Source of the DNA: a virus
Reading direction: 5' to 3' (one strand)
IMG/VR virus record: IMGVR_UViG_3300025930_000021
Coordinates: 1-44,497 of that record
DNA: 44,497 nucleotides
Shown: in pieces, positions 30,116-44,497 of the stretch
How positions within the stretch are numbered: the stretch's first letter is position 1
Layout: every line of letters starts with the position of its first letter
Program-made: the position numbers and the translations under genes
Notes under the pieces: model-generated
The model's database searches: none
Seen by the model: the letters and a program-made list of their open reading frames with translations, nothing else
What the model was told of the DNA's origin: nothing

Positions 30116-30149
30116 TGGCTTAGCTGTCAAGAATCATGCCATAGAATTT

Positions 30150-30311
30150 GTAACCGTAACCGATCGTAACCGCTGTTTTCTATAACCCTCATGCGCGCGC
30201 GTGTATATATCAACGATCTATCGGTTACAAGGGTTACACGGTTACAACTGTTTAAAATCAATCAGTTGCACGTAACCGTTCAACGGTTACATCCTCTTTC
30301 TGAACGGTTAC
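30150..30311. other. Candidate replication origin with iterons
   Basis: Eight exact copies of CGGTTAC lie here: as GTAACCG at 30150, 30156, 30166 and 30272, and as CGGTTAC at 30222, 30239, 30284 and 30305. A degenerate GGGTTAC lies at 30231. Five of the eight extend to CGGTTACA. Two copies form a perfect 19-bp palindrome at 30272-30290. Between the two groups is the only AT-rich and alternating purine-pyrimidine tract of the area. The cluster overlaps the last 54 bases of the VapE-like replication gene. A repressor-binding cluster is the alternative reading. Confidence 0.6.
30190..30210. other. 21-bp alternating purine-pyrimidine tract (possible Z-DNA/unwinding element)
   Basis: The bases from 30190 to 30210 alternate pyrimidine and purine without a break: a (GC)n run passing into TATATAT. 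Such tracts can adopt Z-DNA, and the TA end would melt easily. It separates the direct and inverted iterons, as expected for an unwinding element. Confidence 0.5.
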
Positions 30312-31478
30312 AACTGGCGCGACCCAGGCTTTGACCGGCCTCGACGACCTCCTGATGGTCTGACGGTGCCAGCCGGCGAGCCGCATGATGCTCCCGATGC
30401 GGTGCTGTTCGGTGCGCCCGATGTCGGCCTCGCGAAACTTGAGCGCCCCTTGAAGAATCTCCGAACTGGTCGCGTCGACGCGCCCGATGAGCCAATCGAT
30501 CACGGTCATCGTCCACGCATCATCGGCCTGCCGGTCCGCTTGAATCGCGCGCGTGGCGTCCATGGGCGTCTCCCACCAGGTGGCGCCGGCGGTGAAGGCC
30601 TGCAACGCCTCGGCGAACCACTGAAGGCGTAACGCCCCGATCGCCTCGATGTTGATGGCGCCGCACCGAATCGGCCAGAAGCGCCGGAGACCACTGTCGT
30701 CGTTCCCCCAGTCGTCGCGGTTCGTCGTGCCGGCGAAGACGCACTGCCTCGGATGCTTCTGCACATGGCGGCCGTAACTCGATCGATATTTGTCTTCCGG
30801 TGTGCTGATGGCCGACTTCACGCGCTCACGCTCCGCACGGCTGAAGGCGTCCAGCTCGCCAATCTCGACGAGCCAGGAACCTGGCAGCGCCTGAAAGAAA
30901 TCCTTGTGCGCGACGGATTCGGCTGCGAGCATGTAGTGTTCCCCGCCGAGCACGCGCAGGGCTTTCGATTTCCCGATGCCTTGCGGCCCTTCGAAGACCA
31001 CCATGTTATCGAGGTGACAGCCTGGGGCCATGACGCGCGCGACCATCCCGATCAGCATGTTCGCGCTGATCGCGCGGATGTAGTCGCACGGCTGGTCGGC
31101 TGATGATTCCGCGCCCCAGTGCTCCTCGAAGGCATGCGCGATGCGCGGCTCGCCGTCCCATGTCACGGAGGCGATAAGTTCGCGCACACAGTGCCGCGTG
31201 CGCTGGCGCGCGACGTGCCGCACCGCGCTTGCCACGGCTGTCTCCGCGACCGTGGACATGCCGATCTGCTGCTGCATGTAGACCGTCAGGCGTGTATCGT
31301 CGTCGTCACGCCATTCACGCTCCGCGCTGTTGCGGAGGCGAATACGATCAAGGAACTCGTCATACCAAATCACGTCTGGTCCAAGGGTCGGATCGTGTTG
31401 AATGACGGTGACGGCGTTGGCGAGTGTAGGGCGAGGGCCGCGTTCCGTGCAGTCGAGAACAGACGTCCAGTTTGACAC
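30258..31478 (-). CDS. VapE-like P-loop ATPase (helicase/primase-associated)
   Basis: The protein has 406 aa. Walker A is FEGPQGIGKSKAL (GPQGIGKS at 164-171), and Walker B lies in SWLVEIGELDAF (E205, E208, D210). KSAISTPEDKYRSSYGRHVQ and CVFAGTTNRDDWGNDDSGLR are the arginine-finger and sensor regions of the virulence-associated E family. There is no primase domain, so only the helicase-like part is present. The start has AGGTGA 4 bases upstream. It ends inside the iteron cluster, which suggests that it loads or unwinds at that origin. A C-terminal 80-residue helical domain may bind DNA. Confidence 0.85.
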   Translation of the reverse strand: MSNWTSVLDCTERGPRPTLANAVTVIQHDPTLGPDVIWYDEFLDRIRLRNSAEREWRDDDDTRLTVYMQQQIGMSTVAETAVASAVRHVARQRTRHCVRELIASVTWDGEPRIAHAFEEHWGAESSADQPCDYIRAISANMLIGMVARVMAPGCHLDNMVVFEGPQGIGKSKALRVLGGEHYMLAAESVAHKDFFQALPGSWLVEIGELDAFSRAERERVKSAISTPEDKYRSSYGRHVQKHPRQCVFAGTTNRDDWGNDDSGLRRFWPIRCGAINIEAIGALRLQWFAEALQAFTAGATWWETPMDATRAIQADRQADDAWTMTVIDWLIGRVDATSSEILQGALKFREADIGRTEQHRIGSIMRLAGWHRQTIRRSSRPVKAWVAPVVTVQKEDVTVERLRATD

Positions 31479-32739: not shown

Positions 32740-32951
32740 AGCATCACATCTTGCGCTTCGCATTCGGCCGCGTAACCGTATTCCGTATTCGGCCGCTTGC
32801 GTGGCGGATCACGGAACTGGTGCGGCGAGGTCGAGACATGCTTGGCCTTCGGGTCGTGCTGCATCCGTGCCGCTTCTGTCACAACTTGACGGTAGAACTC
32901 AGACTGTGCTAGGCCGCCATCAGCGTATCGTTGCCACCAGCTCATCTCCAT
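32736..32951 (-). CDS. Small early protein, unknown function
   Basis: The protein has 71 aa. Its ATG at 32951 overlaps the previous stop by one base (TAATG). Features are MEMSWWQRYADGGLAQSEFY and a basic middle (HQFRDPPRKRPNTEYG). No family or membrane segment is seen. It is part of the coupled leftward early string. Confidence 0.65.
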   Translation of the reverse strand: MEMSWWQRYADGGLAQSEFYRQVVTEAARMQHDPKAKHVSTSPHQFRDPPRKRPNTEYGYAAECEAQDVML

Positions 32952-33112
32952 TATCGCTGCCCCTTTCTGAGTAGCCGCAGCAGGTCTGCGGTCAGTTGGC
33001 GGTTCTCTTTCACCTTCGCCGCGAGCTGCGCTTCCATTGCCGCGATCTTCTGATTCTGCTCGTAGAGCAGCGCCAACGCCGCGCAGCGGATTTCGCGCTC
33101 GATGTTCGGCAT
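32951..33112 (-). CDS. First gene of the leftward arm: small coiled-coil protein
   Basis: The protein has 53 aa: MPNIEREIRCAALALLYEQN then KIAAMEAQLAAKVKENRQLT, a heptad-like helix with a basic end (LRLLRKGQR). The ATG at 33112 is six bases after a TACAGT -10 box, so the transcript would begin at or next to the start codon. The upstream extension to 33169 runs through the divergent promoter and was rejected. A small regulator or adaptor is possible; not recognised. Confidence 0.6.
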   Translation of the reverse strand: MPNIEREIRCAALALLYEQNQKIAAMEAQLAAKVKENRQLTADLLRLLRKGQR

Positions 33113-33118
33113 CGGCGG

Positions 33119-33147
33119 ACTGTAGCACGACTTGCAAACGGTGTCTA
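33119..33147 (-). promoter_or_regulatory. Leftward early promoter (leaderless)
   Basis: On the minus strand: -35 TAGACA (33147-33142), 17-base spacer, -10 TACAGT (33124-33119), then 6 bases and the ATG at 33112. The predicted start site coincides with the ATG. The -35 lies inside the palindrome GTGTCTACAC. Confidence 0.6.
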
Positions 33148-33160
33148 CACAGAATATAGT
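33132..33160 (+). promoter_or_regulatory. Rightward early promoter (leaderless)
   Basis: -35 TTGCAA (33132-33137), a spacer of exactly 17 bases, -10 TATAGT (33155-33160), then 7 bases to the ATG at 33168. The transcript would start at or next to the start codon of the HTH gene. It overlaps the leftward promoter back to back. Confidence 0.7.
33141..33150. promoter_or_regulatory. Operator-like palindrome between divergent promoters
   Basis: GTGT-CT-ACAC is an inverted repeat with 4-base arms. It lies in the spacer of the rightward promoter and on the -35 of the leftward one, so one bound dimer could control both. The adjacent HTH protein is the obvious candidate ligand. The arms are short. Confidence 0.4.
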
Positions 33161-33167
33161 GGACGCC

Positions 33168-33371
33168 ATGCCGAATCACCGACGACGCCTTGACCCGCTG
33201 CTGTCCGCGAAAATCGAAGCCTTGATAGCCCGCTACGCCTCGCTCCGGAAGGCCGCCGCCGCCAACGGCCTCTCCGCTGGCTACCTGAGCCACGCCCGCC
33301 GTGGCAATCGCCGACCTGGCGAGAAGCTGCTCAAAGTGCTAGGCCTGAGCGAAAAAAGAATTTACAAATAG
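33168..33371 (+). CDS. Cro/XRE-like HTH transcription regulator
   Basis: The protein has 67 aa. A helix-turn-helix spans about residues 23-55 (SLRKAAAANGLSAGYLSHAR, then RGNRRPGEKLLKVLGL), as in small Cro or XRE repressors. The start MPNHRRRLDPLL at 33168 is fixed by the promoter 7 bases upstream; an upstream in-frame ATG at 33132 lies inside the -35 box. It is the first gene of the rightward arm and faces the leftward arm. It lacks the C-terminal domain of CI-type repressors, so it is more like Cro. Confidence 0.8.
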   Translation: MPNHRRRLDPLLSAKIEALIARYASLRKAAAANGLSAGYLSHARRGNRRPGEKLLKVLGLSEKRIYK

Positions 33372-33374
33372 TGC

Positions 33375-33404
33375 TTGACATGCGTATTCAGCTTGGAATA
33401 CAGT
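33375..33404 (+). promoter_or_regulatory. Second rightward early promoter
   Basis: A perfect TTGACA -35 (33375-33380), 18-base spacer, -10 TACAGT (33399-33404), then 7 bases to an ATG at 33412. Spacing to the ATG equals that of the other two early promoters. It starts 3 bases after the HTH stop. Confidence 0.65.
33384..33401. promoter_or_regulatory. Operator-like inverted repeat in the second promoter
   Basis: GTATTC-agcttg-GAATAC is a perfect inverted repeat with 6-base arms and a 6-base centre. It covers the spacer and the first half of the -10 box, so a bound protein would block transcription. Its sequence differs from the GTGTCTACAC site, which suggests a different binder or a loose consensus. 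Confidence 0.5.
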
Positions 33405-33629
33405 AGCGGACATGACAACACAGTCCACGGCAAGTTCATCGCCGACTACGAAGCCGCCCGCAAGCGGCTCGAAGGGCGCGGCATCAAGTTCGTCACTGAA
33501 TCGCGCATCATCCGCGAGATGCGTGCAGCCGAAGAGCGCAGCGGGGAGTGCGTAGCCTGCGGGCAGCCGGTGGCCGCACACTTCGACCTGCGGAACCGCA
33601 AGCTTGCGTGCCCGAAGGTGTCGCGATGA
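33393..33629 (+). CDS. Small protein with CxxC element, start uncertain
   Basis: From the TTG at 33393 the frame encodes 78 aa; a TTG at 33375 would give 84. It contains GKFIADYEAARKRLEGRGIK and CVACGQPVAAHFDLRNRKLA, and third-position G/C is high from about 33423 onward. There is no ATG in frame near the start, and both TTGs lie inside the promoter. The ATG favoured by the promoter (33412) is one base out of frame and gives a 47-aa low-complexity product ending at 33555. A missing or extra base, or frameshifting, near 33412-33425 is possible. Confidence 0.5.
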   Translation: MEYSSGHDNTVHGKFIADYEAARKRLEGRGIKFVTESRIIREMRAAEERSGECVACGQPVAAHFDLRNRKLACPKVSR

Positions 33630-34559: not shown

Positions 34560-34780
34560 AAGCCTATGTTGCCGTCAAGCACAGCAAGGATGGAGACTGG
34601 ATCAGCGTGAAGGATTTCCAACTCGTGTGCGACGAGAGGAATGCGCTGATGACGGCACTAAAAGCCCTCGTGGCCGAGACTGAAGCTAAGGACAATCCGA
34701 GTGATATGGGCGTGTCTAGAGACGAGCCCGTCATGGTCGCCGCGCTCGCGGCGATTGCGAAAGTTGAGGCTACGCGATGA
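34556..34780 (+). CDS. Small soluble protein
   Basis: The protein has 74 aa. It has no Cys cluster or membrane segment. Features are YVAVKHSKDGDWISVKDFQL and a helical stretch ALMTALKALVAETEAKDN. It is coupled by ATGA overlaps at both ends, just upstream of the exonuclease. Not recognised. Confidence 0.65.
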   Translation: MKAYVAVKHSKDGDWISVKDFQLVCDERNALMTALKALVAETEAKDNPSDMGVSRDEPVMVAALAAIAKVEATR

Positions 34781-36366
34781 GCACCGAACTGCTCCTGATC
34801 GATTTGTCCTCCATCGCGCACTCGCTGTATCACCAGAGCGCGAATGAGCCAGACCCGAACTGGACGGCGAACCGCACCGTGGCGCGCGTCCATGCGCTGA
34901 ACAACGGCAAGCAATCAGGCGTGGCCGTCTGCCTCGACACGCCGCCCTACTTCCGAAAGGACATCGATCCGGCCTACAAGGCGAACCGGCAGAAAGAGCA
35001 CAACGCGGCCGTGGCGCATCAGATTGCGGTCGCGGTCGATGCGCTGAAAGCCGACGGCTTTCCGGTGTGGGGAGCCGCTGGCTATGAGGCGGACGACATC
35101 ATCGCGACGGGTGTGCGCCTGTCCAATGGAAAAAACAGAGACATCGGCGAATCTCTCGCTGGCGCTCGCGCCGAAACGCCTTGGCTCGTCCAGAATGATG
35201 TTGTCATCGCCTCGGCCGATAAGGATCTGCTCCAACTCGTGAGCGACCGCGTCACCGTGCAGAGCCTGAAGAGCGGCGACCGACTCGATCCGGATGCCGT
35301 GAAGGCGAAGTTCGGCGTGTGGCCGCATCAGATGGTCGATTACCTCGCGCTCGTCGGAGACACCAGCGACAACGTCCAAGGCGCCAAGGGCATCGGCGCG
35401 AAGCGAGCCACGGAGATTCTCGAACTGTTCGGCAACCTCGACGATGCGATGAAAGCGACGCGAGAATCGGTCGATGGCGTTGATCCGGAAGGCGTGCCCA
35501 GTATCAGCCGGTCATTGATCGCATTCGAGCCGCGACTGAACACCGTGCGGGAACTGATTCGCCTGCGGACCGATGCGCCGATTCCATTCGATGAGATTTT
35601 CAAGGAGCGACAGCCTGTGACGACGGAAGGATTCGAAGATGACCGAGAGCCGATGGACGAAACGCGACCTGTGGATCGTGGAGCAAGCCCTGAAGTGCCT
35701 GCACCGCATCCAGTCCACGACACAGAAGGCCTCAGCGCAATCAAAGCGTTCCAGAACGTCATCCCAACGGAAACGCCGCGAGAAGTCAAAGCTGCCATTG
35801 ACGTGATGATGGCACCGGCCAAGCCGAAGCCTGACGGACCTCCGGAATCAACCGCGCTGGCCGTCGTGGAGTGGGACCGCCAGCTCGAGCCGCGCGACAT
35901 GAAACAGGCGTATTGGATCGCGCAGCAGTTGTTCCAGTCGAAGCTGTTCGCCGCCTACGGCACGCCGGCTGCGGTCCTCTCGACCATCATGGCCGGCCGT
36001 GAGATGGGCTTCTCGACGATGGCGAGCCTGCGGGCGTTCCATATCATCGAAGGCAAGCCGACGATGAGCGCCGGCGCCATCCACTCGCTCGTGCTGAAAT
36101 CAGGCAAGGCGAAATTCTTTCGCTGCGTGGAGCGGTCTGCGACCAAGGCCGTGTTCGAGACACAGCGCGGCGACGATCCGCCGTTCACGATGGCCTACAC
36201 GATCGAAGAGGCGCAGCAGGCGTGGTCGAAGGATCAGTCGGCCTGGAACCGCAGCGGATGGGGCAAGCACCCGGCCGACATGCTGATCGCCAGATGCAGC
36301 AGTAAGCTGGCGCGGCTGGTCTACCCGGACGTGTGCCACGGTCTGTATTCCGAGGAGGAGATGTGA
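34777..36366 (+). CDS. 5'-3' exonuclease joined to a RecT-like annealing domain
   Basis: The protein has 529 aa. Residues 1-280 are a FEN/T5-type 5' exonuclease: D9, D54, YEADD (E104, D106, D107), SADKD (D148, D150), VGDTSDN (D195, D198) and an H3TH helix GAKGIGAKRATEIL. Residues 287-355 form a Pro/Glu-rich linker. The rest (AGREMGFSTMASLRAFHIIE, PTMSAGAIHSLVLKSGKAKF, WGKHPADMLIARCSSKLARL) matches a RecT-like single-strand annealing family of phages. So end-resection and strand annealing sit in one chain, like lambda Red in one polypeptide. A GTG/ATG at 35803/35806 could also start the second half alone (186 aa). Confidence 0.8.
   Translation: MSTELLLIDLSSIAHSLYHQSANEPDPNWTANRTVARVHALNNGKQSGVAVCLDTPPYFRKDIDPAYKANRQKEHNAAVAHQIAVAVDALKADGFPVWGAAGYEADDIIATGVRLSNGKNRDIGESLAGARAETPWLVQNDVVIASADKDLLQLVSDRVTVQSLKSGDRLDPDAVKAKFGVWPHQMVDYLALVGDTSDNVQGAKGIGAKRATEILELFGNLDDAMKATRESVDGVDPEGVPSISRSLIAFEPRLNTVRELIRLRTDAPIPFDEIFKERQPVTTEGFEDDREPMDETRPVDRGASPEVPAPHPVHDTEGLSAIKAFQNVIPTETPREVKAAIDVMMAPAKPKPDGPPESTALAVVEWDRQLEPRDMKQAYWIAQQLFQSKLFAAYGTPAAVLSTIMAGREMGFSTMASLRAFHIIEGKPTMSAGAIHSLVLKSGKAKFFRCVERSATKAVFETQRGDDPPFTMAYTIEEAQQAWSKDQSAWNRSGWGKHPADMLIARCSSKLARLVYPDVCHGLYSEEEM
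35639..35806 (+). CDS. Possible nested gene in the exonuclease-annealase linker
   Basis: In the frame one base off, the ATG at 35639 (GGAAGG 8 bases upstream) opens 55 codons: MTESRWTKRDLWIVEQALKC then LHRIQSTTQKASAQ and a Lys/Arg-rich tail. Third-position G/C is about 75% (87% for its first 31 codons) against about 55% for the host frame there. Its TGA overlaps an ATG of the host frame (TGATG, 35804-35808), which would allow re-initiation into the RecT-like half. A basic, nucleic-acid-binding microprotein is plausible; chance cannot be excluded. Confidence 0.4.
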   Translation: MTESRWTKRDLWIVEQALKCLHRIQSTTQKASAQSKRSRTSSQRKRREKSKLPLT

Positions 36367-41263: not shown

Positions 41264-41466
41264 AGGGTGAAGCCATGACCGATCCCGGCGTCAATAAACT
41301 CACGAATGTTCTGTTCAACGGCGTGGTCTGGGTGAAGCAAGGGGACTACGACAAGCTCCAAACCCAACTCGCAGCCGAGCGAGCCAAATCAGAATCCATG
41401 CGAGAAGAACTGCACGCGCTCCGGCGACAGGTGGCTGGACTGGATCAGGCCGCGTCAGGCGGGTAG
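41260..41466 (+). CDS. Last rightward gene: small coiled-coil protein
   Basis: The protein has 68 aa from ATG 41260 (ATGA overlap) or 63 aa from ATG 41275, which has GGTGA upstream. Features are NKLTNVLFNGVVWVKQGDYD and a C-terminal coiled coil (QTQLAAERAKSESMREELHA). The last 22 bases overlap the end of the opposing holin-like gene. Not recognised. Confidence 0.6.
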   Translation: MKGEAMTDPGVNKLTNVLFNGVVWVKQGDYDKLQTQLAAERAKSESMREELHALRRQVAGLDQAASGG

Positions 41467-43769: not shown

Positions 43770-44150
43770 TCACTTCCAGAAATGGCTGATCAGCATGCCG
43801 ATCACGGCGATGATGGATGAAATCGCGAACATGCGCCGATCCATCTCCGATTTCATGCGCGCCTTCTCGTCAATCAACTCTTGCAGGTCGCGCGTCCGGT
43901 TCGTTTCCAAGATGAGCACGCGGTCTGCGACCAAACGGTCCTCCCGATCATGAGCGGTCATGCGGGCGCCGAGGCCATCGGCGACCGAATCAATCGAAGT
44001 GCGGAGACTCTTGTGCGAAGTCTCCAGTTTATCGGATAGCATCTGAAAGACTTGCACGACCAGCCCTTGCGTGGCCGGAGCCTGCGCGTCAACGGAGCCG
44101 GGATTCGCCATAACCGTGAGATCCCACGCGAGCAGATGTTGGTTGTTCAT
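43770..44150 (-). CDS. Tail-anchored coiled-coil membrane protein
   Basis: The protein has 126 aa from ATG 44150, with GGGGAG 4 bases upstream. The centre is a coiled coil (DKLETSHKSLRTSIDSVADG; RVLILETNRTRDLQELIDEK) and the C terminus is one membrane helix (FAISSIIAVIGMLISHFW), so it would be anchored by its tail. This matches XhlA-like lysis proteins. It opens the lysis block after a hairpin. Confidence 0.65.
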   Translation of the reverse strand: MNNQHLLAWDLTVMANPGSVDAQAPATQGLVVQVFQMLSDKLETSHKSLRTSIDSVADGLGARMTAHDREDRLVADRVLILETNRTRDLQELIDEKARMKSEMDRRMFAISSIIAVIGMLISHFWK

Positions 44151-44259: not shown

Positions 44260-44497
44260 CTAATACCCCCGACAGATTACGTAGGTTTTTTCCCCATCAG
44301 AAAATCCCGTCGTGCCGATAACTAGTTGGGCGGTCGTGACGGTCTGTATGGACGGAAAGGCCGATGTGGATGCCCCGCTTGCCACGCAGACCGGCGCATT
44401 CGTGAAAACCGTATTGAAACCAACTGTGCATGTGGATGGCGAACCCGTCCCGATCGTCACGACGAAGGCAAAGGGCTTTCCCGCGATCGATGATCCC
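44260..44497 (-). CDS. Tail fibre/appendage protein, C-terminal part (continues from position 1)
   Basis: The frame entering at 44497 ends at 44260 with SSIAGKPFAFVVTIGTGSPS, TCTVGFNTVFTNAPVCVASG and TTGFSDGEKTYVICRGY. The TGSPSTCTVGF...APVCV pattern is a common C-terminal knob of phage fibre proteins. It joins in frame with the gene at 605-1. Two Cys pairs may stabilise the knob. The GTG at 44460 that would make it a separate gene has no ribosome site, and the frame is open to the end of the contig. Confidence 0.75.
   Translation of the reverse strand, partial: GSSIAGKPFAFVVTIGTGSPSTCTVGFNTVFTNAPVCVASGASTSAFPSIQTVTTAQLVIGTTGFSDGEKTYVICRGY
44489..44497. repeat. 9-base terminal direct repeat, right copy
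   Basis: Identical to positions 1-9 (gatgatccc). See the left copy for its bearing on circularity. Confidence 0.7.

Follow-up and report, generated by a model that had tools for sequence, protein, structure and literature searches.

We found that the two arms of an uncultured tailed phage genome are separated by a 55-bp divergent intergenic region (33113..33167) that carries two predicted sigma70-type promoters, arranged back to back with overlapping cores, whose -10 elements lie only 6 and 7 nt from the start codons of the genes on either side. The window, by which we mean the whole stretch of DNA analysed here, is a single IMG/VR virus record of 44.5 kb, and its soil origin is an assumption. 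We consider it probable that both arms are launched from this gap by leaderless transcripts. According to this model, the gap would act as the early control region, with transcription by host RNA polymerase beginning at the AUG or no more than one base from it in both directions, and the first gene of each arm would thus be translated from a leaderless mRNA. Given the overlap of the promoter cores, a polymerase bound at one promoter should keep the other from being used, and host transcription would be divided at a single site between a leftward arm with predicted genes for replication, packaging and structure and a rightward arm with predicted HTH, exonuclease-RecT, helicase and methyltransferase genes. 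The first right-arm gene, a Cro/XRE-like HTH gene in the cro position, would most likely feed back on the gap, a part of the model in which we place lower confidence than in the launch itself, while the remainder of the right arm would be transcribed separately, from a third promoter behind the HTH gene.

The gene-caller map of the window contains 68 genes, with a single real -/+ divergence at 33112/33168 and a single +/- convergence at 41466/41445. A second divergence at 44150/44348 was rejected as an artefact of the record end, because an open minus-strand ORF crosses the record ends. The proposal of the initial annotation that one control region serves both genome arms is supported by this map, 33112/33168 being the only real divergent gap. 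The record ends (1-9 and 44489-44497) overlap by 9 bases, which together with the ORF running through the join suggests that the map is nearly complete and circularly permuted. End overlaps of 110-127 bases were observed in four relatives. Elsewhere in the window, a cluster of CGGTTACA/TGTAACCG repeats at 30148-30316, between a VapE-like helicase gene and the next minus-strand gene, holds 5 exact copies against 0.48 expected and forms an iteron-like array that is possibly an origin or a regulator site.

The rightward promoter, TTGCAA-17-TATAGT, occupies 33132..33160 on the plus strand (-35 at 33132-33137, -10 at 33155-33160) and stands 7 nt before ATG 33168, and its -35 matches the consensus at only 4/6 positions. 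The leftward promoter, TAGACA-17-TACAGT, occupies 33119..33147 on the minus strand (-35 at 33147-33142, -10 at 33124-33119), stands 6 nt before ATG 33112 and carries an extended -10 (TGC). The two cores have 16 bp in common (33132..33147), each -35 lying inside the spacer of the other promoter. These coordinates and the distances to both start codons had been proposed in the initial annotation, and all were correct on recheck. In a promoter scan of the whole window on both strands, requiring at least 9/12 matches and at least 4 in each hexamer, five promoters passed in 44.5 kb, three of which cluster here within 290 bp (33119-33404). The third of these, TTGACA-18-TACAGT (33375..33404, plus strand), had been overlooked previously; it starts three bases past the HTH stop codon and ends 7 nt before ATG 33412. 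The window therefore has three ATGs with a promoter 5-8 nt upstream, as compared to a mean of 0.47 and a maximum of 3 in 60 dinucleotide shuffles. The count of three alone is moderately unusual, and the promoter observation becomes convincing because of the clustering and the comparative data, beyond the count.

At all three promoters, the first T of TANNNT lies 12-13 bp before the start codon, which is the position expected of leaderless genes (PMC3160421). Unstructured 5' ends were considered as further support and dropped, as no unusual lack of structure was seen in the initial 40 nt of any of the three putative mRNAs (structure z 0.75, 0.39 and -0.59). Some Shine-Dalgarno signal is present in the genome, at 21/68 gene starts versus 12% of random positions, and leaderless translation is thus not the default of this phage. 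Both genes flanking the gap open with the identical eight bases ATGCCGAA.

The first left-arm gene (32951..33112, minus strand) encodes a 53-aa protein, probably a coiled coil as judged by reading its sequence, with no match to a regulator in the family libraries. Its homologue in L034, the closest relative by exonuclease-RecT, aligns from the same Met (E 3.9e-6, 47% identity), and the in-frame extension upstream of ATG 33112 (33113-33169) scores as non-coding (-5.0); ATG 33112 is therefore supported as the true start. In viral contigs, no close relative of the 53-aa protein was confirmed, and the alignment of this protein with its L034 homologue, used as a query, returned only the record of L034. 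For the HTH gene, the one alternative start further upstream is a TTG that lies within the -35, and the extension to it has a neutral score (0.6).

Behind the third promoter, ATG 33412 does not share the frame of R2, the second right-arm gene (33393..33629, plus strand, predicted start); over roughly the same region, the frame of this ATG has a coding score of -5.3 and that of R2 +11.0. R2 itself is in frame with the HTH gene, from which the HTH stop codon separates it. The mismatch could come from a frame-changing difference, an assembly error or the use of another start. R2 is weakly homologous to the first right-arm gene of L034 (E 0.001, a 36-residue C-terminal match), which starts directly behind a promoter at a distance of 7 nt; the window therefore resembles L034 in layout, except that an HTH gene and one more promoter stand between the divergent gap and R2.

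The 5'-3' exonuclease/RecT fusion gene (34777..36366, plus strand), which joins a polymerase-type 5'-3' exonuclease to a RecT-like annealing domain, served as the family marker for finding relatives. Many full-length relatives are present in IMG/VR; a search with the protein found 7 loci and one with its alignment found 399, from which we retained the best 80, and L034 is the closest among these best 80 of 399. In the named phage collection, no record had one place covering 80% of the fusion, and none of its 50,697 records had a near DNA match to bases 22000-44497. In bacterial genome contigs, the fusion matched by its exonuclease part only and no prophage was recognised. Searches with the RecT part covered 396 genomes from the phylum to which L136 belongs (a record titled Acidobacteriota) and 398 from that of L170 (a record titled Rhizobium), with 3 and 4 distant matches, respectively, and no host call was made from either.

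The close promoter-to-ATG spacing recurs in these relatives. In a survey of 60 family loci (871,120 bases including overlapping pieces, with pairs deduplicated and the window excluded), 14/30 pairs of a promoter of at least 10/12 and an ATG fell at distances of 6-7 nt, as compared to an average of 0.23 in each bin from 12 to 59 nt. At the same cut and distances, the controls gave 2/16 in 18 other viral loci and 7/67 in 80 bacterial contig loci, and at the looser cut of 9/12 the counts were 19/76 for the family, 7/102 for other viruses and 21/374 for bacteria. These controls indicate that a weak peak at 6-7 nt also exists elsewhere, while the peak in the family is far stronger.

In a rule-based test, we examined 44 non-redundant loci, the window among them, and took from each the closest divergent gap of 24-298 bp on the upstream side of exonuclease-RecT. 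A qualifying gap was absent in 10/44 loci, and the other 34 gaps provided 68 starts. The rule for a leaderless start was passed by 17/68 starts at the nearest gaps versus 31/1,087 other starts (odds ratio 11.4, p 1.7e-10), and by 15/66 when the window was left out. Six of the passing starts are on the left and 11 on the right, with both sides passing in four loci (the window, L034, L037 and L063). The rule is not perfect: in L041 it took another gap, and at the one not picked both sides qualify as well; in L048 it took another right start; and it fails the left side of L087/L031, where promoters of this form exist. Both sides are empty in 21/34 gaps, and the leaderless trait is thus common in the family, not universal. 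A search for an extended -10 (TGnTAnnnT, 5-8 nt before the ATG of an ORF of at least 35 aa) found 12 sites in eight records, 6 of them at these divergent gaps, with a single site in the window, at ATG 33112. In 13/16 hand-picked promoters, a C directly precedes the start codon. Because the spacing recurs before unrelated first genes, it suggests selection on the spacing itself. Taken together, the spacing and the relatives lend good support to the earlier proposal that the mRNAs on both sides are leaderless, a reading that is drawn from sequence.

Two candidate markers of this layout were discarded. The string TGCTACAGTnCGCCG(n)ATG occurred at four loci in viral contigs, one being the L034 record and the other three unlike this layout. 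A clean split of gap lengths by integrase was also dropped, as there are exceptions on both sides. Where no integrase was detected in the record, gaps with leaderless sites measure 42-86 bp, and several CI/Cro-like gaps with integrase measure 116-168 bp; the split is broken by L047 (65), L102 (90) and L076 (overlapping genes) on one side, and by L036, L043, L049, L050 and L054 on the other (109-206 bp, no integrase, no leaderless sites).

The initial annotation had further placed an operator-like palindrome in the gap, GTGTCTACAC (33141..33150), which does cover the left -35 and lie within the right spacer, as described there. However, this 4+2+4 palindrome with a CT centre is equalled or beaten in 88% of dinucleotide shuffles of the gap (p 0.88), and its role as an operator was rejected as no better than chance. 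The related 11-mer TGTCTACACAG has 10 scattered copies with at most 2 mismatches, against 5.3 expected. No C-box-like repeat stood out in the 55-bp gap, and the best inverted repeats in 15 gaps tested were mostly not significant, with the lowest p values at 0.050 (L031) and 0.053 (L066). In L034 (5121-5207), both divergent promoters contain TGCTACAGT, preceded just upstream by an inverted copy of GTTCCTGAT, which hints that the inverted copies of GTTCCTGAT may be a candidate shared control site in that relative; no such inverted copy was seen in the gap of the window.

The first right-arm gene (33168..33371, plus strand) encodes a 67-aa protein that is probably a Cro/XRE-like HTH protein as judged by its predicted fold. 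The AlphaFold model, built with seven distant sequences, is an all-helical five-helix HTH (pLDDT 78.5, pTM 0.60), as would be expected for the XRE/Cro type. Its best Foldseek matches are XRE regulators (ClgR, C.BclI, C.Esp1396I and C.AhdI), the best at E 0.017 and none at E<=0.001. The sequence families gave no match above the cut-off, with sub-threshold Pfam and weak PHROG matches only. No match was found in named phages and no close relative was confirmed in viral contigs; in L057, the first left gene encodes an HTH protein 35% identical to the 67-aa protein and lies behind a promoter at 6 nt. The position of the gene and its predicted fold make binding of the protein to the gap plausible. 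In L031, L018, L061, L048 and L032, small basic proteins of the 'GRKGG/GRLGG' type are encoded beside the divergent gap where others have an HTH.

The HTH protein in the cro position raises the question of whether the gap is a degenerate or minimal CI/Cro-type immunity region, in which a true Cro and an unrecognised repressor would form a lysis-lysogeny switch; we regard this as unlikely. Integrase-bearing relatives often have divergent XRE genes at the same place (L052, L063). Phage_integrase is present in 15/48 records, many of them fragments (8/18 in a set that includes the window, itself negative, and 7/33 in another, the sets sharing three records negative in both), and in the set of 18, HTH_3 is above the cut-off in 7/8 integrase-positive records versus 1/10 negative ones (G011). 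The window, however, yielded no integrase (PF00589) or resolvase (PF00239), other routes to lysogeny being conceivable, and no HTH_3/CI-like gene in a PF01381 search. It has divergent promoters with an HTH on one side only; the CI-type repressor gene, palindromic operator in the gap and integration functions of a lambdoid immunity region were not found in it, and the left gene encodes a probable coiled coil, not a repressor. The genetic switch suggested in the initial annotation is therefore not supported as a lysis-lysogeny switch, given that neither integrase nor CI-type repressor was found in the window, but a weaker kind of switch, mutual exclusion of RNA polymerase, is likely on physical grounds at the overlapping core elements, an arrangement also found in EcoRV-type promoters. 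We think it likelier that the gap provides an early start for each arm, perhaps under feedback from the HTH protein, and the reading that suits the window best is that of a non-integrating branch within a family in which CI/Cro-like pairs occur elsewhere.

Ordinary leadered promoters, with real transcription starts elsewhere and a coincidental spacing of 6-7 nt, appear quite improbable. The fact that shuffles can reach three such sites and the Shine-Dalgarno signal in the genome would fit this explanation, but the peak at 6-7 nt in relatives and the conserved start Met of the left gene argue against it, and no other promoter of at least 9/12 lies nearby. A circuit of the restriction-modification C-protein type, in which a small HTH protein activates and represses an overlapping divergent pair, is highly improbable: C.BclI, C.Esp1396I and C.AhdI are within the Foldseek top 20, EcoRV has overlapping divergent promoters and AhdI C a leaderless mRNA (PMC5333194), and two methyltransferase genes are present, yet those matches fall short of E<=0.001, the gap lacks a conspicuous C-box-like repeat, and a scan of 10 proteins revealed no restriction enzyme.

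Under the leaderless launch model, the phage would begin infection with messages that need no Shine-Dalgarno pairing. We tentatively suggest that, in an uncultured soil lineage that lost integrase and repressor, only a bidirectional leaderless promoter was left of an ancestral CI/Cro immunity region, the divergent promoters hugging the start codons having been kept as the main site from which the host machinery launches both arms; infection would then begin with leaderless messages, and polymerase exclusion, not a repressor pair, would set the balance. The family may offer a natural series for the decay of a lysogeny switch, from CI/Cro-like pairs with integrase to minimal pairs without it, and the recurrent spacing provides a sequence-only route to early regions in uncultured phages.

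Such an arrangement is a compact form of a known type of phage early region, and its interest comes from its recurrence in uncultured relatives. We found no publication that joins leaderless mRNAs with overlapping divergent promoters within a partial coverage of the literature, and such a report may be in print elsewhere. Lambda PR/PRM combines divergent promoters with a leaderless cI mRNA, CI, three operators and lysogeny functions. The window resembles it in its divergent promoters and cro-position gene, whereas CI, the three operators and the lysogeny functions were not found. TANNNT about 10-12 bp before the start is the published in-silico mark of leaderless (TA-led) bacterial genes, which occur in several phyla (PMC3160421), although that work is a genome-wide survey of host genes and ours concerns one divergent phage region. 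Overlapping divergent promoters with a small regulator are described for EcoRV and CfrBI, and the C gene of AhdI is leaderless (PMC5333194). EcoRV is similar in that RNA polymerase cannot occupy its two promoters together and the regulator is a small HTH protein; it differs in that the C mRNA is not leaderless, and in that it controls restriction-modification genes, not phage arms (PMC5333194). The closest precedent is phage PY54, whose cI and cro mRNAs both begin at the AUG as mapped by RACE, in a source that also reports lambda cI to be leaderless (PMC4488713). The immB region of PY54 has a 116-bp gap with one 16-bp Cro operator and a CI repressor in a temperate phage (PMC4488713), while the window has 55 bp, no significant operator, and no CI or integrase found. 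By analogy, the likeness would lie in the divergent early regulators, with a Cro-type HTH on one side (PMC4488713).
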